This document shows positions 1,620 through 28,406 of a DNA stretch of 35,092 nucleotides, piece after piece. The position numbers and the translations under genes are program-made. Every line of letters starts with the position of its first letter. Position 1 is the stretch's first letter. Source of the DNA: a virus. A model generated the notes under the pieces. It was not told the origin of the DNA. It was given only the letters and a program-made list of their open reading frames with translations, and searched no databases. The DNA is taken from IMG/VR virus record IMGVR_UViG_3300011113_000313, positions 1 through 35,092 of that record. One strand, written 5' to 3'.

Positions 1620-3578
1620 TTAAAAGGGCTCATTTGTCACCTTTTTGCTGAATAAACCAGCCTCAGTTTCTTCGATCAAACCGTCCTCTTTAGCCTGCTT
1701 CACACGGGCCTTCGCTTGCCGTTCCTGCAACCCGGTGGCCTGTTGTACGAATGCGACCACTTGGCTGTATTTAGCCCCTTCGGGTAATTTGCCCCAATCG
1801 ATCGACATGGCCTTTCGGCCAACTGACTTTTCTGGCGCTCCTACCTCAATCCAGGCCATTCCCCTGTCTGCATGCTTTAGGTGGACTAACGACTGCGTCT
1901 TGGTTGCGATAAAATCGCTCGCAGTGACGCTAGGACGCAAGCCAGACCGCTTTCCGCGCTTGGTCACCTCTAGCTTATATGTGTACGTTCCTTGCTCATC
2001 CTGACCACAAGGCGACAGCATTAAAACGGCTCTTGCCCAATTCGTCAGCTCGGATGAGCCAAATCCGCTATACGCCTTGTCGTGGCCCTGATAACCGCTG
2101 CCGTCCCGTGTTGGCTTTGGCGTATGGTGCATAAGCATCCAAGCAAATCCGCCAGATAGGGCGAGCGGGTTAAGCAAATTACGCAAAAAGCCACCTGCCG
2201 TCTCCTGGCTGGATAAGTCGCCACCGATAAACGCAAGCAACGGATCTACCCAAGCTAAATCAGGCTTATGCTTTTCAGCCAAGCGCCGCATTCTATCGAC
2301 AAACCGCTCACCAGTAGACGTGCAATCACGCACGATCACGATGTTTTGCTTCACACGTTCCAACTCCTCTGCGGTGAGATCCAATGCTTTTAGAATGCCC
2401 TGTAACGCTTCAGCCACGTCGCCCTCGTCGTTCTCCGCCTGGACGATCAGCGACTTCAACGGCTTGCCGTGTGGCGATATGCCAAACAGATCACGCCCAG
2501 CCGCCCATGTGATCGCTGCCTGTAAGCACAGCACGCTTTTACCAAGGCCACTGCTACCCACCCACAAGGCCGATCCGCCACGGCAGATCCATCGCTTGCC
2601 TAGTAGTTGCGTTATATCCGCATCCTCCTTGAAATTGACCAACTGCTCCCAGCTATATGGCTCGGGGATATCACCATAGATTGTGCGCTCCATCCACTCC
2701 ATGTAGGTCAGCGTCGGCGCACCACACTCAACCAACTCCTGCTGTAAGCCTGTGGCCGTCCTCATCGCTCCGGGCAACCGCGACAATCGCCCAGCGTCCT
2801 TGTTGGCTGGATCGGGTTTCGAATGTTCAAGATGCTTGTAAATAAAATCGACTCGTTCAGCGAACTCCTTGGCATTAGCTGCTCGAATATCCACCCAGGC
2901 GTGTAGGCTACGTGCTCCGCTCTTAATGATAGCGGAAGTGGGTAATCCGCTGCGCTTAATAATGGCCCACTGCTCCGCCATCGTGCTTTCATCAAACTCG
3001 ATTAGGCAGTGGCGGTACTTAACGATCGACTCCGCTTTCCGATTCTTTCCGTTGTTAGCGTTAATCGATACATAAACGCCCACCGCATCGCCTTGCCACT
3101 CTTTCAACCCGTCGGCCTTAAACAGCTCCAGCCATTCCTCACGGCTTCGCGTCTCGCCTGCACCGTCCGGCCGCTCGCGATCGCCGTCCTTAATGGATCT
3201 TGTGATATTTATGAAATCACCCACGTCGAAACAGGTAGTAAGGAACTTATCGACCGGCCCGCTCTCCACGCTAATCGGCATAGGCGGCACCGGCAGGTCC
3301 TCCCGCACGATCGCCCCGTTCTGATAGCCATACTTGGCTTTCGGCCTCCAAGGCTCCCTGGCTGGCTTACTGTATGCGGATTTAACGGCTGCAACAGCTT
3401 CGTTTTGCGATAGCCCCACCTTGTAGGCCCACTCTTCTGCGTTCGTCGTTGCGTCGAACTCGGTTAGACCTTGGTCACGCCATTGGCAGGACAGCTTAAA
3501 TAGCTGCGTGTTGCGCTCACCTTCAGCGGCTCCATTGCGATGGATGGCTTCGATTGCGGGTGGTAGTGGTGCGATCAT
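1620..3578 (-). CDS. Primase-helicase (RepB/AEP-like primase fused to RepA-type AAA helicase)
   Basis: 652 residues. The N-terminal half has the RepB-like primase pattern: CLIEFDE at 191-197, a serine/histidine strand SGARSLHAWVD at 220-230, and RLSRLPG at 264-270. The C-terminal half is a RepA/RecA-like helicase, with Walker A GSSGLGKS at 341-348, Walker B LAWVD at 441-445 and a following MHH at 483-485. The end looks like a winged helix (about 600-640). Together these indicate initiation and unwinding at the phage origin. Its stop abuts the repeat cluster at 1487-1619. ATG at 3578 overlaps the radical SAM stop by 4 bases. Confidence 0.85.
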   Translation of the reverse strand: MIAPLPPAIEAIHRNGAAEGERNTQLFKLSCQWRDQGLTEFDATTNAEEWAYKVGLSQNEAVAAVKSAYSKPAREPWRPKAKYGYQNGAIVREDLPVPPMPISVESGPVDKFLTTCFDVGDFINITRSIKDGDRERPDGAGETRSREEWLELFKADGLKEWQGDAVGVYVSINANNGKNRKAESIVKYRHCLIEFDESTMAEQWAIIKRSGLPTSAIIKSGARSLHAWVDIRAANAKEFAERVDFIYKHLEHSKPDPANKDAGRLSRLPGAMRTATGLQQELVECGAPTLTYMEWMERTIYGDIPEPYSWEQLVNFKEDADITQLLGKRWICRGGSALWVGSSGLGKSVLCLQAAITWAAGRDLFGISPHGKPLKSLIVQAENDEGDVAEALQGILKALDLTAEELERVKQNIVIVRDCTSTGERFVDRMRRLAEKHKPDLAWVDPLLAFIGGDLSSQETAGGFLRNLLNPLALSGGFAWMLMHHTPKPTRDGSGYQGHDKAYSGFGSSELTNWARAVLMLSPCGQDEQGTYTYKLEVTKRGKRSGLRPSVTASDFIATKTQSLVHLKHADRGMAWIEVGAPEKSVGRKAMSIDWGKLPEGAKYSQVVAFVQQATGLQERQAKARVKQAKEDGLIEETEAGLFSKKVTNEPF

Positions 3579-4546
3579 GATAGAAGCTCCATTTGATCCT
3601 TAAAGCAGCTAGACCTTGTCTGGCCTCCTCGAGAATACTCATCCCAAGGCACAAATTTATAAAGACGACGGACAACCCATCTCTGGAATTTTTTAAGCTC
3701 CTTATTAGAATTATTGTAGACCATGGGATAAGGAAGCAGCCCAATCTCATTCATTTTTTCAAACCGATAGAAAATATCTTCCATCGTTTCTCCCGGCCAA
3801 TATCCACAAAGAAAATACACCATGATGTGCTGCGGTTTTATTCCTGCGTCCAAAAGAATGTTAACTCCGCGCATGAAGATCCCCTCATCCTTTCGATTGT
3901 CCCAAGCCGTATAGATTCGCTTAGTCTTAAATTGGTCGTCCCTGTATTTGATTTTGCAAAGCTCGGTTGCTCCTTCCTTGTGAATGAGGCGGATATTGAT
4001 CCCCTGGTTAAATGATACTTGAAAATCGTTTTCTAAGATTTCTTCTGTTTTCTGCTTCCAGTTTGGTTGCCCAAAAAAATCGTTATCCAAAAGAATGATT
4101 TGCTTCGGGTAGGGTTCGCCCCTCCATATTTTTTTTATGGTGGAATTGTCTCTGATCTTTCCCTCTTTTGTTGGAACTACACAAAAAGAGCACTTTAGGC
4201 GGCAGCCCCGCTGGCTGAACCCGATCGACTGCTTAAATGATGGATATATTGAATAATCGTATTCATCAAATTCTTGGCCCGTAATTTCTTCTATGGTTTG
4301 CGTTTTGCCGGATCCCGTTCCTCCAATAATTGCGTTTGGAAAGTTTTGCAGAAACAGCTCTCTTGCTGGCTGACTCCAAGCAAAGATGGAACTCCCGTAT
4401 ACTTTGTCATAATTGCCTTCCCATAGTTCCTTCTGAATAGATTTACTAAAATAAACTTCATCCCCTTGGCTTTTATGCCAAGCAGACAACTTCATTAAAG
4501 CCAAGTTTGGAAGCTTCCCGTCAAGATGTGTGATTCTTACGATCAT
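3575..4546 (-). CDS. Phage radical SAM protein of the replication region
   Basis: 323 residues. A CxxxCxxC cluster (C115, C119, C122, in RGCRLKCSFC) binds the 4Fe-4S cluster of radical SAM enzymes. The preceding region has a conserved GGTG and 'YSIYP', as in phage and MiaB-like radical SAM proteins with an N-terminal Rossmann/B12-binding-like part. The DNA is more AT-rich than its neighbours, which suggests separate acquisition. It is coupled on both sides (ATGA at 4543-4546 and 3575-3578), between a small gene and the primase-helicase. The substrate is unknown; an RNA, DNA base or peptide modification fits the family. Confidence 0.8.
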   Translation of the reverse strand: MIVRITHLDGKLPNLALMKLSAWHKSQGDEVYFSKSIQKELWEGNYDKVYGSSIFAWSQPARELFLQNFPNAIIGGTGSGKTQTIEEITGQEFDEYDYSIYPSFKQSIGFSQRGCRLKCSFCVVPTKEGKIRDNSTIKKIWRGEPYPKQIILLDNDFFGQPNWKQKTEEILENDFQVSFNQGINIRLIHKEGATELCKIKYRDDQFKTKRIYTAWDNRKDEGIFMRGVNILLDAGIKPQHIMVYFLCGYWPGETMEDIFYRFEKMNEIGLLPYPMVYNNSNKELKKFQRWVVRRLYKFVPWDEYSRGGQTRSSCFKDQMELLS

Positions 4547-22980: not shown

Positions 22981-23427
22981 TCAACTCGCGATAGAATTCG
23001 GATATGCGATGACTGCCAGCTTAAAAGTGCGACGCATTGTGCGCTCTTCATCGTCCGCCTCTGGCTCTACAGAATCTACCTTAGCATTGTAACAACGGGC
23101 AGATCCGATGGCCGTAGTGGCGTTTAGTCTAGCAGTTAAAGTACTTGAATCATAAAAAGCCTGCAGAATCTTGGAGCATTTTTGAGTGTGTGCGTCCACG
23201 GTTGTATCGTCGTAAGAGTCGTCCACAACGATTTCAACTGGCACGGCAAACACTCCCGATCCTCGCACTGGCTCTTCCGTTCCAAGCGTGGCTTTTATTA
23301 CGATAGATGGAGGCATGTTCTCGGTCTTATCGTGCGACAAGTGATAGGTAGGCCCGGTGACTGTTGCAGTTAGAAGCTCTTGAAAAGCAGCTTCAATTAA
23401 ACGATCGAGCATGGTGACGGCTGGCAT
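22981..23427 (-). CDS. Tail terminator/completion protein (gpU-position)
   Basis: 148 residues: a helical start (MLDRLIEAAFQELL), then strands PPSIVIKATLG and FAVPVEIVVDD, a helix ending QAFYDSS, and strands to the end. This helix-strand order matches phage minor tail/terminator proteins that cap the tube. It resumes the structural series after the five-gene insertion. ATG 23427; another ATG lies at 23412. Confidence 0.6.
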   Translation of the reverse strand: MPAVTMLDRLIEAAFQELLTATVTGPTYHLSHDKTENMPPSIVIKATLGTEEPVRGSGVFAVPVEIVVDDSYDDTTVDAHTQKCSKILQAFYDSSTLTARLNATTAIGSARCYNAKVDSVEPEADDEERTMRRTFKLAVIAYPNSIAS

Positions 23428-23444: not shown

Positions 23445-24059
23445 TCACCATATCGGGCGGATCGTCGGATCAAATGTGACCATGGTTTTACAACCCGCAC
23501 CGCCATGCGGAAACGTTGGCGTGTAATGATATCGCATTACGCAATCAGGCCAAGTCATCGTGGCCTTTCCCCTAGCGGCCTTTGGCGTATCCACGGATCG
23601 ATCGTTGTCCTCAATAATAAATGTACATGGTAGATCTGCCCCAGCCACGTAGTTAACGGCTTCGTAAAAGTGGCCCTCGTCCTCAGCTCCATCGCCCAAG
23701 AAGCACCACACCTTTGCCGTGCTTCCCTGCTCTTTAATGGTATGCGCCACTCCAGCCGCTATCCCGCAAGTGCCAGCCAACACGCTGGATGTATAAAAGT
23801 TAAGTTTGCGGTCGAATACAAACATGGATCTGCCCTCTTTAATCATCTGCTCGAGCACGTCGGGATCTCCGCCAGCCAGCAGGTAGTGATAATGGGATCT
23901 GTGGCTTGAGAAGATCCAATCGCCTGGCTTAATGTCTTTAAATATCTCGATTAGTTGATCTTCATTGCCGCCGCATAGGTGAATCAAATAAGGCAGTTTG
24001 CCCTGCTCAAATAGAGCCTTAATTCTCAATTCAAAATCAATTAGATCCTGTTTGTTCAT
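23445..24059 (-). CDS. E1-alpha-like ThDP-dependent enzyme subunit (minimal)
   Basis: 204 residues, about two-thirds of a usual E1-alpha. The thiamine-diphosphate motif is intact: GDG at 122-124 (LGDGAEDEGH) and the partner D151-N152 about 27 residues later, with LPCTFIIEDN matching the canonical LPxxFxxxNN. Upstream, SSHRSHYHYLLAGGDP and the AGTCGIAAGVAHTIK stretch match the E1-alpha cofactor-site region. It ends shortly after the His-Gly-Gly of HGGAG. It should pair with the beta-like subunit two genes upstream. No E2 or E3 gene is present, so this is unlikely to be a classical dehydrogenase complex. ATG overlaps the radical SAM stop. Confidence 0.85.
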   Translation of the reverse strand: MNKQDLIDFELRIKALFEQGKLPYLIHLCGGNEDQLIEIFKDIKPGDWIFSSHRSHYHYLLAGGDPDVLEQMIKEGRSMFVFDRKLNFYTSSVLAGTCGIAAGVAHTIKEQGSTAKVWCFLGDGAEDEGHFYEAVNYVAGADLPCTFIIEDNDRSVDTPKAARGKATMTWPDCVMRYHYTPTFPHGGAGCKTMVTFDPTIRPIW

Positions 24060-25147
24060 ACAAAAGCGTCGTGGCTATCCGTGGCCAGCTTTTCAAATAG
24101 CGCTACTTTGGCGTGATTTGCACACTCGTGCAGGCAACTGACGCCAGGGTTAAACGTCTTATGCCATTTGCGTGCCTCCTCGCTAAACCAAGCCTGCTTA
24201 AACGATTGCTCTTTAATTGAACCAATGCGGCCGTGATCGCTGTACGCAGTGTTGTGGCAGGCGTAAATATTGAGATCCGCACCGACAACGCAGACGGCTT
24301 GAGCGTATAGACAGCGATGAAACGGCCTGATGGGCGACTTGCTTGGGCTATCCAGATCGTAGGTTGTGTTAATGGTAAAATCGTCGTCACAGAATGATTG
24401 GCACTCGACCAACTGCTCCCTGACTCTAACTGCAATGGTGTTGTGATATTCTTTAAAGTTTTGAACGTATACGGGCGAAAAGCGAACGTTGCTCACGCCT
24501 GCATCTTTGAGTTGTTTAGCAAACGGAACCAATCCCTCGTAATTGTAGCGGGTAATTATAAAGTTAATCCCGAGGTCACAGCTTTCCGTTTTGGTATTTG
24601 AAAAGTTTTTAATGTTTTGCATCACCGAATCAAACGACCTATCGGGCACGTTACGGCTCGACGCCATCTGCTCTGCGCTTGTATAGTCCATGGAAATTCT
24701 AACCCACTTTGCGTTGCCCAATACTTCCGCCCTTTCGCCTGCGAGCAGTTGGCCGTTGGTAATGATCGACAGATCCAAATCAGACGAAACTGTCTTAGTC
24801 ATAATCTCGACAATGTCTTTATGCAGCAGAGGCTCTCCGCCACCGCTAAACGTAACGGCTTTTGTTCCGATAGTTGCCAGATCGTCGATTAGTTCAAGCG
24901 CCTTATTTCGTGGCATCACGTCACGCTCGTTCATGCTTGTGTGCATCCCTGCCTGTAGATGCAAGTCAGGCCGATCCTTGGGCCTCGTTGTGCCGTCAGA
25001 ATAAACGCAGAAACGACAGGCGTGATTACAGATATTCGTCGGTTTAATCCGCACGTAGATGGGTGCGGTGATAATATCGTCGCGGAAACTGGCTATCTTA
25101 TCGGGGAACGAAAAGATTTTGTAATCGCTGTATTTGTTTTGCTTCAC
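24056..25147 (-). CDS. Radical SAM/SPASM enzyme
   Basis: About 363 residues from GTG 25147 (GTGA overlap; a GTG one codon earlier is also possible). CNHACRFC gives C40, C44 and C47 for the 4Fe-4S cluster, and FSGGGEPLLH is the SAM-binding motif. The C-terminus has a SPASM-type Cys set (VCVVGADLNIYACHN, then SCLHEC) for an auxiliary cluster. It is transcribed between the two ThDP subunits. SPASM enzymes modify sugars, peptides or cofactors; here sugar or alcohol oxidation is the best guess. Confidence 0.85.
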   Translation of the reverse strand: MKQNKYSDYKIFSFPDKIASFRDDIITAPIYVRIKPTNICNHACRFCVYSDGTTRPKDRPDLHLQAGMHTSMNERDVMPRNKALELIDDLATIGTKAVTFSGGGEPLLHKDIVEIMTKTVSSDLDLSIITNGQLLAGERAEVLGNAKWVRISMDYTSAEQMASSRNVPDRSFDSVMQNIKNFSNTKTESCDLGINFIITRYNYEGLVPFAKQLKDAGVSNVRFSPVYVQNFKEYHNTIAVRVREQLVECQSFCDDDFTINTTYDLDSPSKSPIRPFHRCLYAQAVCVVGADLNIYACHNTAYSDHGRIGSIKEQSFKQAWFSEEARKWHKTFNPGVSCLHECANHAKVALFEKLATDSHDAFV

Positions 25148-25662
25148 CACTCATCCTTTCGCTCGACCAGCATGGTGGAAGTTCCGACGCTTAATCTGTC
25201 CAGTGCGCTTTGATACTCGCTGACTACGATTTCCTTTTTTAGTTCGACGATTGGGAAGTCGATCATTTCTCTAAGTGCTTTAGTAAAGTCCTGCGTATGA
25301 GTCGGGCCCGTGTATAAGGGTTTATATTTATTGCCAATGACTACCCGCAAAATGGCGGCCGGTTTGAATTGATTGCAGCTAATGTGTTGCGCTGCGCCCA
25401 GGTGATTCACGATGGCATCCAGCGCATTCAAAATAAAATCCATTCGTTCAATAAAGACAACGGGTTTTAGCCCCGCCAAACTAAGGCCGGTGGATAGTCC
25501 CACCATTAGATTTTCGGCGACGGGTGTTTCGATGAGTTGCGAATCTGAGACGTGATTCAGCGTGCCCGCTGCACGCCCGCCTATCTTTACGCCGTACCCT
25601 ATAAACCTGACGGCTGGATCGGCCGCCAGTAAATCCATTGCCTGCGTCAGCTCTTGCTTCAC
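25144..25662 (-). CDS. E1-beta-like transketolase pyrimidine-binding domain protein
   Basis: 172 residues from GTG 25662 (GTGA overlap with the previous stop; the longer frame to 25758 is antisense-like junk). The fold is the pyrimidine-binding domain of transketolase/E1-beta: ETPVAENLMVG carries the conserved Glu (E50) that activates the cofactor ring, then GLSLAGLKPVVFIERMDFIL and a DAIVNH helix follow. The usual C-terminal transketolase_C domain is missing, so the protein is about half normal length. It should form an alpha2beta2 enzyme with the product of 23445-24059. Confidence 0.85.
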   Translation of the reverse strand: MKQELTQAMDLLAADPAVRFIGYGVKIGGRAAGTLNHVSDSQLIETPVAENLMVGLSTGLSLAGLKPVVFIERMDFILNALDAIVNHLGAAQHISCNQFKPAAILRVVIGNKYKPLYTGPTHTQDFTKALREMIDFPIVELKKEIVVSEYQSALDRLSVGTSTMLVERKDEW

Positions 25663-26423
25663 AGCAACCCTTCCTCTTCCAAAATATGCAGAGCGTGAAA
25701 TGCGCTTCTGGCCATCTGCCCGCGTTGGGTAAATATGACTGTTTCTGTATCTGCACAAAGCAGGTGGAAAGCATCCTTGTTGTGGACGTTAAGGCACGGC
25801 CAGCTCGGCCCGGTGGATGTTCCGATCACGGCTTTTGCTTTGGCAGCCGTCGCTCCTATCCAAGTTACATTTTTATTATCAAACGCTGGGCATAATCCAG
25901 TATCCATCGTGCTGATCACCCGATGACCCTTGCTAACTAGTTTAGATACTAGGTTACGAAAATCGTCAGGATTAAAATTTGTGAATTGACCAGAGAGTCC
26001 TGGCGAATTGATGACTACTATGTCGCATTCTGGCGCCATGGGCATAAAGGAATCCAACGCCGAATAATCAAATAACAGATCTTCAACTTTACGGATCGGA
26101 TTTTTAACGCACATCCTGCTGGCCAGTTCTTCAAACCAGCACAGGTGAAATTGGGCAAAGTTTAGTTTATCGGGGTGACGTTCCCAATATCCGCCCGTGT
26201 TACGCCACGAATCAATGCTATTGGCTGGCGCCTCGTTGATTGGGCGAATGCGTAACCGTAAAGATATGTCGCTACGCAAGGCGTCAATTTCCTCAAACTT
26301 GCACAGCTCTGGATTATGGTAGTGCGTGATTTCAAGATCAGGATTTTGCAGGCATAGCCGACGCAAAAAGTTTAGTTGTACTAGGTTGTCGCCTAACCGC
26401 AGTGCGTTGTGAGTATGAATCAC
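25659..26423 (-). CDS. GT-B-like glycosyltransferase (GT9/heptosyltransferase-like)
   Basis: 254 residues from GTG 26423. ALRLGDNLVQLNFLRRLC at the start matches the GDxxxxxPxxxxL opening of GT9 enzymes, CDIVVINSPGLSGQ the mid-domain strand, and VIGTSTGPSWPCLNV the nucleotide-sugar-binding GPSGPxH-like end. It is shorter than typical heptosyltransferases. Within the coupled cluster it probably transfers an unusual sugar to a glycan or protein. Confidence 0.65.
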   Translation of the reverse strand: MIHTHNALRLGDNLVQLNFLRRLCLQNPDLEITHYHNPELCKFEEIDALRSDISLRLRIRPINEAPANSIDSWRNTGGYWERHPDKLNFAQFHLCWFEELASRMCVKNPIRKVEDLLFDYSALDSFMPMAPECDIVVINSPGLSGQFTNFNPDDFRNLVSKLVSKGHRVISTMDTGLCPAFDNKNVTWIGATAAKAKAVIGTSTGPSWPCLNVHNKDAFHLLCADTETVIFTQRGQMARSAFHALHILEEEGLL

Positions 26424-28105
26424 GGGTTACGCTCTTTAAAAATTTTCTCGCCAAGCTCGTAGTTTTCCTTGGCGTTGTGGCGCTTAAATTCCGCGTCCTG
26501 CACTGCGCCTGTGAAGATCGGATTATTGTGGGCAAAAACGACATCTTTTGCGTCAATGATTACGCCGTCTTTTGCACCGCGTAAGCTGTACTCGTTATCG
26601 CTGAAAATGCCCGAGCATGCGTCGTACTCAGGCGCAAAGAGTGTGCCCTGCTGTTTCAGCCTAGCCTTTGTTAAAATTGCAATACAAAGCAGGTCGTCTT
26701 TGCGATGGCCGTCGGATACCGCAAGGATTGATGGTTTGCTTAGATCGCCAAGTCGTTGGGTGATGATCGTATCCCAATGCAAAGGAGGATCCCAATCGTC
26801 AGAGCCTTGAACAATGATTTCACCACGGGCCACTTCTGCCGCCCTGTTCCACGCGGCAATGCATCCACCCTTACCGCTAACAGTGCCCCAATTTTTAAGC
26901 ATGCTGGCTTTGGGATCGTCATCATCGACTGAGTAGATCCACTCGATCGAGGCTGGATCTGCCGCCTTTTTCATCCACAAGATACGGGCGTTAATGGCCT
27001 CCTGCGGTCGTCCTCGCGTTGCGTGGCAGACGCTAATCTTTACTGGCTTTTGTGCCCGCCACATGTTCTCGATCTTTTCCGCTTCCGTTGTATCGCCCAC
27101 GGCCTTGCAGGCCGCCAGATATAAATCGATGCACTCGAAGTCGTACACGGTGCGCTGGGCGTTCCAGATCTTGACGCCCGGATCGGGCTGAACCATTGCG
27201 GATTTGAGCAAGTGATATGCTTGTAACCACGCACCCACGCTCGCCTCTTCCCTAGCTAAAAAGTAAATCGCTTCTCTGCGCCCAGGATTCATCTGATGTG
27301 CCTTTTGGTATAAGCCGATCCGAACATTGCGATCTTGTGTGGCCGTAGCCTGATTGCATGCAGCCTCGTATGCCAGCGTGGCCTCTTGCCCAGGCCAGAC
27401 GGCCGCAACGTGTGACCACGGCTCCGATTCTGTCCTGCGATTGCCTAAGAATAGTTCCTGTTGGTAGTAGTACGCATACTTGCCCGCCTCGCTTAACTGC
27501 CCTTGCAGGATGCGGAGATTCCGATCGGCACTGTTTGGCTTATATCCGCCAGGGTGATGCTCCACCCATACCGCCTGTTCGCCCACAGATTCCAGCCCAG
27601 CATTAGGCAATAGCGCCTCATGTACGGCATAGTGCCACTTTCCAGACCATACGCCGTCTATACGCCTCACCATCCTCTCACGTACGGGCCGTAAAGAGGC
27701 GTTAATGACGTTATAAACGCCTGCATAGATACCGAGCTTAGGATTCTGCTCAAATGCTTCTACGCCCCTTTTAAGAGCGTTTTTGAGGTCTTTATGTGGC
27801 AAGTCGTCGCAATCCACCCATACCGCATAGTCGCCCGTGCAGGCATCCAGTGCCATGTTGCGAGCAGCGGCAAAGTTATCTACGTGGGGCCAGCTTGCGC
27901 CTGCGGGTGCGTTTTTATATTCGACTATCTTGGCGCCTGACTTCTCCGCTATCGCCCGTGTGCCGTCATCAGGCCGAGCGCCCTGGGCAATGCACACGAC
28001 CAGCTCGTCGCAGTATGGCTTAAATGCGGTAAGGCAGCGGTCGATAAATTGCGCCTCGTGCCCGGCGATCATGTAGATGGAGATTTTAGGATTTCGAATG
28101 GCCAT
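26420..28105 (-). CDS. Double glycosyltransferase family 2 protein with TPR-like middle
   Basis: 561 residues from ATG 28105, one base after the connector stop. An N-terminal GT2 domain has ISIYMIAGHE and the DxD-type YAVWVDCDDL; a helical middle (about 260-360) looks TPR-like; a second GT2-like domain contains VCHATRGRPQ, YSVDDDDP and VQGSDDWDPP. N-terminal similarity is to GT2 enzymes that glycosylate surface structures. It opens the five-gene block and is probably its glycan-assembly enzyme. Confidence 0.8.
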   Translation of the reverse strand: MAIRNPKISIYMIAGHEAQFIDRCLTAFKPYCDELVVCIAQGARPDDGTRAIAEKSGAKIVEYKNAPAGASWPHVDNFAAARNMALDACTGDYAVWVDCDDLPHKDLKNALKRGVEAFEQNPKLGIYAGVYNVINASLRPVRERMVRRIDGVWSGKWHYAVHEALLPNAGLESVGEQAVWVEHHPGGYKPNSADRNLRILQGQLSEAGKYAYYYQQELFLGNRRTESEPWSHVAAVWPGQEATLAYEAACNQATATQDRNVRIGLYQKAHQMNPGRREAIYFLAREEASVGAWLQAYHLLKSAMVQPDPGVKIWNAQRTVYDFECIDLYLAACKAVGDTTEAEKIENMWRAQKPVKISVCHATRGRPQEAINARILWMKKAADPASIEWIYSVDDDDPKASMLKNWGTVSGKGGCIAAWNRAAEVARGEIIVQGSDDWDPPLHWDTIITQRLGDLSKPSILAVSDGHRKDDLLCIAILTKARLKQQGTLFAPEYDACSGIFSDNEYSLRGAKDGVIIDAKDVVFAHNNPIFTGAVQDAEFKRHNAKENYELGEKIFKERNP

Positions 28106-28106
28106 T

Positions 28107-28406
28107 CTAAACCTCTCGCAACCCAAGCACGTAACTGCCGATAGAAGTATCAATCGACGCCACCCGATAGCTGACGGAGTTGGCCAGCAGAATAGATCCG
28201 ATAGTTGGAGCAGTGGCTAGGTTTGCCACGTCGATGGTGAAGGTAGAGTTTAGATCCAGATCATATCCGCCGAGATCGACGTTTTCTTTACGGGTAACAG
28301 TGGAAAGAATGCCAGTGACTGAAGTGGAACCGATAGTGGCGGCCGTGCCGGTTTGAGTATAAAGTGCGGCCAGACTTTCCTTGAGTGCTTCTGTGAATTC
28401 GGACAT
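28107..28406 (-). CDS. Head-tail connector (FII-like position)
   Basis: 99 residues, helix then mostly strands: MSEFTEALKESLAALYTQTG, then VTGILSTVTRKENVDLGGYD and strand-rich end. This layout and its place directly after the capsid protein fit a lambda FII-like head-tail joining protein. ATG 28406. It is the last head gene before the glycan/ThDP block. Confidence 0.55.
   Translation of the reverse strand: MSEFTEALKESLAALYTQTGTAATIGSTSVTGILSTVTRKENVDLGGYDLDLNSTFTIDVANLATAPTIGSILLANSVSYRVASIDTSIGSYVLGLREV

Follow-up and report, generated by a model that had tools for sequence, protein, structure and literature searches.

Two-carbon branches are attached to keto sugars in antibiotic biosynthesis by enzymes that depend on thiamine diphosphate (ThDP). 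The alphaKADH2 enzymes of aldgamycin, kibdelomycin (KbDH-alpha/beta), paulomycin (Pau11/Pau12), and avilamycin (AviB1/AviB2) are two-subunit proteins of E1 type, encoded next to sugar genes, that branch 3- or 4-keto sugars with acetyl, a C2 unit taken from pyruvate (PMC12247030, PMC4753412). The split-gene transketolases of miharamycin and amipurimycin, which accompany an oxidoreductase, are proposed to add hydroxyacetyl to keto sugars (PMC12247030), and YerE places a C2 branch on a keto sugar to give yersiniose, of surface polysaccharide (PMC12247030, PMC4753412). The branch ketone may be reduced later, as by Pau7, an aldo-keto reductase and not a short-chain dehydrogenase/reductase (SDR) (PMC4753412). 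Ketones can also be made by radical chemistry: BtrN, a radical S-adenosylmethionine (SAM) enzyme, oxidizes an alcohol of 2-deoxy-scyllo-inosamine to a ketone; four Cys residues ligate its auxiliary cluster, in contrast to that of MoaA (PMC9012708). Here we describe a five-gene cassette of a phage, contained in a stretch of 35,092 nucleotides (IMG/VR record IMGVR_UViG_3300011113_000313, positions 1 to 35,092; hereafter the window), which encodes small E1-alpha-like and E1-beta-like ThDP subunits, a radical SAM/twitch enzyme, a double GT2 glycosyltransferase, and a putative second glycosyltransferase. We judge it somewhat probable (roughly 0.55) that this is a glycan cassette, one whose enzymes make a carbon-branched sugar and transfer it; with its relatives, it would repeat the antibiotic logic with both ThDP classes.

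The alpha gene travels with one of two kinds of oxidase gene. In 173 distinct alpha genes, five of them on cellular contigs, the partner is a radical SAM enzyme in 90 cases, a zinc alcohol dehydrogenase in 70, and neither in 13; both never occur together (Fisher p 2e-35 by gene and 2e-14 by 85% lineage, kinship not corrected for). These counts come from scans that took the best 80 matches, and the IMG/VR contigs among them are fragments that are not mutually independent. Truncation of contigs does not account for the exclusivity, which holds among loci where 3.5 kb or more of sequence flanks alpha in both directions (57 radical SAM, 60 dehydrogenase, none with both, three with neither). Seven of the 13 loci with neither partner are on contigs ending near the gene (one, L229, still showing the edge of an alcohol dehydrogenase), five belong to a divergent clade, and one is L311; four of the five divergent loci, including the three with flanks of at least 3.5 kb, carry radical SAM-type enzymes just under the cutoff. 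Nor did the pattern arise from one ancestral split: a tree of alpha plus beta (54 lineages) forces at least three changes between the two oxidases, on its starred branches, and places the radical SAM types basally when rooted at the midpoint. The first-pass annotation of the window had named scattered, unrelated genes in relatives as evidence that would count against its reading. What we found is linkage in 173 distinct loci, with alpha, beta, and the oxidase staying together despite shuffled gene order. Among 50,697 phage records, strict matches to the dehydrogenase came only from the cyanophages S-SM2 and P-TIM68, which are also the two isolates there with the ThDP family.

The ThDP pair is exchanged as well. 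Of 61 distinct radical SAM genes of this family, 48 have E1-alpha nearby, six have a transketolase-type pair, and seven have neither; all seven lie on contigs that end close to the gene, five of these still show beta, and every sufficiently complete radical SAM contig has a ThDP pair. Four independent radical SAM lineages have transketolase-type pairs (PF00456 plus PF02779, the C-terminal domain lacking here too), and transketolase is the best family for the diphosphate-binding subunit only in these swapped relatives (L449, L512, L528, and L534). One such lineage consists of near-twins of the window phage that retain the GT2 gene, the GT9-like gene, and a radical SAM enzyme 93-95% identical. 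The compact pathway that the first-pass annotation had outlined, combining ThDP carbon-carbon chemistry, oxidation, and glycosyl transfer, thus gains strong support from linkage, oxidase exclusivity, and this replacement, with substrates, products, and target (virion or host surface) as conditional parts of the proposal.

The same replacement bears on a different chemistry, in which the radical SAM enzyme or dehydrogenase turns a hydroxy acid (a sugar acid or hydroxyacyl group) into a keto acid, and decarboxylation of that acid by the ThDP enzyme yields the aldehyde or activated acyl group that decorates a glycan. Alpha-keto acids are the normal substrates of E1-type enzymes, and the radical SAM fold is near that of BlsE, a sugar-acid decarboxylase. 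The usual donors of transketolases are ketoses, however, and the presence of both pair types beside near-identical radical SAM enzymes is easier to reconcile with a ketone acceptor common to both than with a common keto-acid substrate, which makes this alternative distinctly improbable.

An SDR gene adjoins 19 of the 60 dehydrogenase cassettes and two of transketolase type, and the SDR of L512 and L528 is of the type seen with the dehydrogenase. The L528 cassette is also adjoined by a DegT/DnrJ aminotransferase gene (L528:6592-7647), which suggests amino-sugar products in some phages. The combination of zinc dehydrogenase with a transketolase-type pair was not found, although no IMG/VR search was aimed at it. 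Transketolase searches of phage records gave matches mostly in records resembling bacterial DNA, and a fold search of BFVD gave nothing significant. Transketolase fragments of Campylobacter phage CP21, taken from the BFVD listing, were set aside, since some 49 kb separates them and no closely related radical SAM gene adjoins them; they are two separate short proteins (L551:25189-25767 and L552:24423-24872), the first seemingly without a clear GDG.

Several features suggest that the radical SAM enzyme makes a ketone. Its CxxxCxxC motif for the SAM cluster (C41, C45, C48) is invariant in 25 sequences, as are exactly four further cysteines (C280 x17 C298 x40 C339 x3 C343). BtrN aligns over this four-Cys stretch, which is consistent with a predicted four-ligand auxiliary cluster, and the profile matches the BtrN twitch domain at 39.6 bits (24 bits with the domain alone). 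The folds nearest to its AlphaFold model are DesII, SuiB, and BlsE, with BtrN also found; DesII and BlsE likewise act on sugars, but they are a deaminase and a decarboxylase, respectively, with 16-18% identity to the phage protein. The phage enzyme differs from BtrN in its length of 363 amino acids (aa) and in its ThDP and glycosyltransferase partners. On two-electron oxidation of a secondary alcohol the relatives speak indirectly, through mutual exclusion with the zinc dehydrogenase, counted over 160 loci, and at least three independent switches; an enzyme exchangeable with an alcohol dehydrogenase is most simply a ketone maker. A similar contrast exists between BtrN and the NAD enzymes that serve related routes to aminocyclitols.

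The ThDP subunits had been described at first pass as keeping their cofactor motifs but cut to roughly half or two-thirds of full size. The motifs are indeed retained: in alignments of 24 alpha and 22 beta relatives, G122 D123 G124 of alpha and A48 E49 N50 of beta (with the catalytic Glu) are invariant, and the DN of alpha is at least 90% conserved. The subunits are short, but the family appears to be an old minimal one and not a product of truncation, with shortness as a family trait: alpha has only the diphosphate-binding (PP) domain and beta only the pyrimidine-binding (Pyr) domain. In many phages, including the cultured cyanophages S-SM2 and P-TIM68, the two are fused to one protein of about 400 aa. 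Because of these cyanophage fusions, PHROG_34187 covers both subunits (alpha 13-195 and beta 223-403 of 405 positions); the window alpha matches its N half at 1e-72, and beta corresponds to its C half. This cyanophage "transketolase central region" protein belongs to the same family and differs in being paired with a zinc dehydrogenase and many nucleotide-sugar genes. Decay of a host dehydrogenase is rejected, since 173 distinct relatives keep the motifs and a fused form exists.

By profile, beta matches PF02779 (Transket_pyr) at 3.4e-6 and E1 beta chains of the PDB at 6e-15, and alpha scores best with E1alpha of pyruvate dehydrogenase (PDH; 85 bits versus 26 for transketolase). The AlphaFold model of a fused homologue, not of the window pair itself, is confident (pLDDT 90.9, pTM 0.92) and superposes on transketolase over both domains with TM 0.60-0.63 and on E1beta with a root-mean-square deviation of 2.2-2.8 A over 175-181 columns. 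The window pair thus shares with alphaKADH2 an E1-type PP domain with GDG...N and a Pyr domain with the catalytic Glu, but beta stops at 172 aa, and the transketolase-C domain (PF02780) gave no match in the window beta, the fused relatives, or the transketolase-type relatives. The phage enzymes differ from alphaKADH2 also in being viral, often a single chain, and paired with a radical SAM enzyme or zinc dehydrogenase; from the Streptomyces secondary-metabolism transketolases in lacking transketolase-C and in having a radical SAM oxidase; and from YerE, a single-chain flavoprotein of the decarboxylase superfamily, in being of E1 type.

Homology of alpha and beta to PDH E1 might suggest an auxiliary metabolic gene, one that changes the central metabolism of the host through a stripped pyruvate or 2-oxo acid dehydrogenase E1. 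The absence of E2 and E3, remarked on at first pass, extends from the cassette to its conserved neighbors; the C-terminal regions of a PDH-complex E1 are missing, the pair is constantly accompanied by an oxidase and glycosyltransferases, and the family is nearly absent from cells, so that we find this idea hardly credible.

We favor synthesis of a branched sugar, for which the following steps are proposed. A host sugar, probably linked to a nucleotide, phosphate, or lipid, would lose hydrogen from one of its alcohol carbons to the radical SAM/twitch enzyme; the second electron would pass to the enzyme's auxiliary cluster with its four Cys, leaving a keto sugar. We infer this product from the BtrN-type architecture and from the replaceability of the enzyme by a zinc alcohol dehydrogenase of NAD type. 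The minimal alpha/beta enzyme would then decarboxylate an alpha-keto acid (for E1-type pairs, most likely pyruvate) and join the two-carbon unit to the ketone, giving a tertiary alcohol, whereas in transketolase-type versions the unit added may be hydroxyacetyl, donated by a ketose. Reduction of the branch ketone would follow in other phages, by an SDR; this step is absent in the window phage. Finally, the GT2 and GT9-like proteins may attach the sugar to a virion protein or the host surface. Glycosylation of virion proteins has a precedent in mycobacteriophages, according to PMC11256854, which cites Freeman et al. 2023.

Genomic context agrees with a role in glycan synthesis. In 80 relatives found by the major capsid protein, the double GT2 gene is the constant gene of the slot, lying between the FII-like and tail genes wherever these can be read, whatever the other cargo: the full block, the transketolase version, or methyltransferase plus GT9-like genes. 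Three near-identical phages carry methyltransferase plus GT9-like genes, or DUF5672, methyltransferase, and GT9-like genes, behind the same double GT2 (L410:8658-9808, L482:10939-12236, and L430:8886-10859). A constant GT2 with varying cargo points to an exchange site for glycan-type genes. Across 44 lineages, cassette neighborhoods are enriched in SDR, PfkB, GT2, methyltransferase, and GDP-mannose dehydratase/epimerase genes, and distant open reading frames of the same lineages are more often phage structural or unrelated.

The cyanophage and Prochlorococcus copies adjoin genes for GmhA, an HldE-like kinase/nucleotidyltransferase, GmhB, and HldD. This, together with the replaceability of the E1-type pair by a true transketolase-type pair, is what a precursor-supply role would lead one to expect, with the ThDP enzyme as a mini-transketolase on free sugar phosphates (its product could be sedoheptulose 7-phosphate, on the way to ADP- or GDP-heptose) and with the oxidase serving a different step of that heptose or keto-sugar route. 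We consider that role unlikely for the window, where the pair is clearly E1-like and no heptose genes were seen, and it leaves the constant presence of an interchangeable dehydrogenase unexplained. Some points nevertheless weigh against the branched-sugar proposal. The heptose-type neighbors of the cyanophage versions suit a transketolase-like supply role too; the scanned part of the window has no nucleotide-sugar gene that would fix the substrate; three oxidase switches are a modest count from contigs that are not independent; and the two steps could run in reverse order or act on a non-sugar polyol. Known alphaKADH2 beta chains, moreover, are expected to carry a transketolase-C domain, which the phage beta is without.

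The family is predominantly viral. IMG/VR holds hundreds of relatives (560 in one search), and among 84,980 species genomes at least five contigs carry close relatives, followed by a gap to ordinary E1alpha fragments; in sampled genomes of two phyla the family was present in 1 of 395 and 1 of 386. On these counts we reject recent pick-up of an ordinary host gene. The cellular copies are on contigs of metagenome-assembled or single-cell genomes, where misbinning is possible. Three of them, assigned to a Deltaproteobacterial, a Desulfobacterales, and a Nanoarchaeota genome (L085, L086, and L089), are larger versions with two or three radical SAM enzymes, and L086 adjoins an lptC-looking gene. 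A Prochlorococcus single-cell contig has a zinc dehydrogenase and a fused ThDP enzyme beside GmhB-, HldE-, and HldD-like genes (L088:1624-6494). The phages that carry the alpha-beta-oxidase trio differ widely in background: a 35-kb phage, cyanomyoviruses, and a 735-kb phage. Host assignment by terminase was dropped, the matches being below 32% identity.

We know of no phage for which synthesis of a carbon-branched sugar has been demonstrated, and the literature that we searched contains no report of this cassette. There is perhaps an even chance that viruses own a mix-and-match branched-sugar pathway, in which a virus-specific two-domain ThDP carboligase (E1- or transketolase-type, both without the C-terminal domain) is combined with a radical or zinc/NAD ketone maker, so that virions or infected cells would bear unusual glycans open to quick exchange. 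From the natural swaps of both components follows a direct prediction of function for a radical SAM/SPASM enzyme that could not otherwise be assigned. For its class, the ThDP pair would be unusually small, and tertiary-alcohol biocatalysis could use it as a practical starting point. Viruses are singled out as a source still unexplored in a 2025 review (PMC12247030). Since two cultured cyanophages carry a version, the idea can be tested now.

The cassette genes and their flanks are listed in Table 1.

Table 1. Cassette and flanking genes of the window
Feature	Position	Strand	Remarks
Double GT2 glycosyltransferase	26420..28105	-	561 aa; PF00535 1e-12 on N half; PHROG_13126 and PHROG_14945, one per half
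GT9/GT-B-like protein	25659..26423	-	254 aa; named by motif only
Mini E1-beta	25144..25662	-	172 codons; ThDP pyrimidine-binding domain only; PF02779; Glu in ETPVAEN
Radical SAM/twitch enzyme	24056..25147	-	363 aa; PF04055 5e-18 and SPASM 5e-5; predicted alcohol-to-ketone dehydrogenase
Mini E1-alpha	23445..24059	-	204 aa; ThDP diphosphate-binding (PP) domain; GDG...DN; PF00676 1.6e-17
FII-like head-tail attachment gene (flank)	28107..28406	-	PF05354 E 0.0014, under curated cutoff; order kept in relatives
First tail gene past cassette, terminator position (flank)	22981..23427	-	Adjoins slot in relatives

A second, unrelated radical SAM protein is encoded in the replication region of the window, adjoining a primase/helicase gene (3575-4546, minus strand; PHROG_9298, 6e-60). 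Some phages glycosylate their own DNA with sugars that they make; this and the place of the second protein would suit a cassette that builds a sugar-like group for phage DNA bases. That role is very doubtful: the window open reading frames scanned include no base-modifying gene, the cassette lies between head and tail genes, and one cellular copy adjoins a lipopolysaccharide-type gene.

The series between the FII-position and terminator-position genes, as first described, agrees in gene content, order, and flanks with our analysis, in which all five frames are open and on the minus strand. Its domain names were borne out by Pfam for four genes (GT2, E1beta-like, radical SAM/SPASM, and E1alpha-like), the GT2 catalytic domain scoring 48.7 bits against a PF00535 cutoff of 23.3. 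The tail gene gave no significant family match in the Pfam scan. The GT-B-like gene has no Pfam, PHROG, or NCBIfam match, and its closest GT9 structure, 3tov, is non-significant (E 0.42); the motifs LGDNL and GTSTGPSWP, kept in 11 relatives, suggest by resemblance a GT9/GT-B protein. The neighbors do overlap, though not by the 4 to 7 bases first given: beta starts at GTG 25662 and not at TTG 25758, and with the likeliest start of the radical SAM gene, GTG 25147, all four overlaps are 4 nt, and 7 nt arises only with the upstream radical SAM start GTG 25150. The GT2 and FII-like genes lie side by side, not overlapping.

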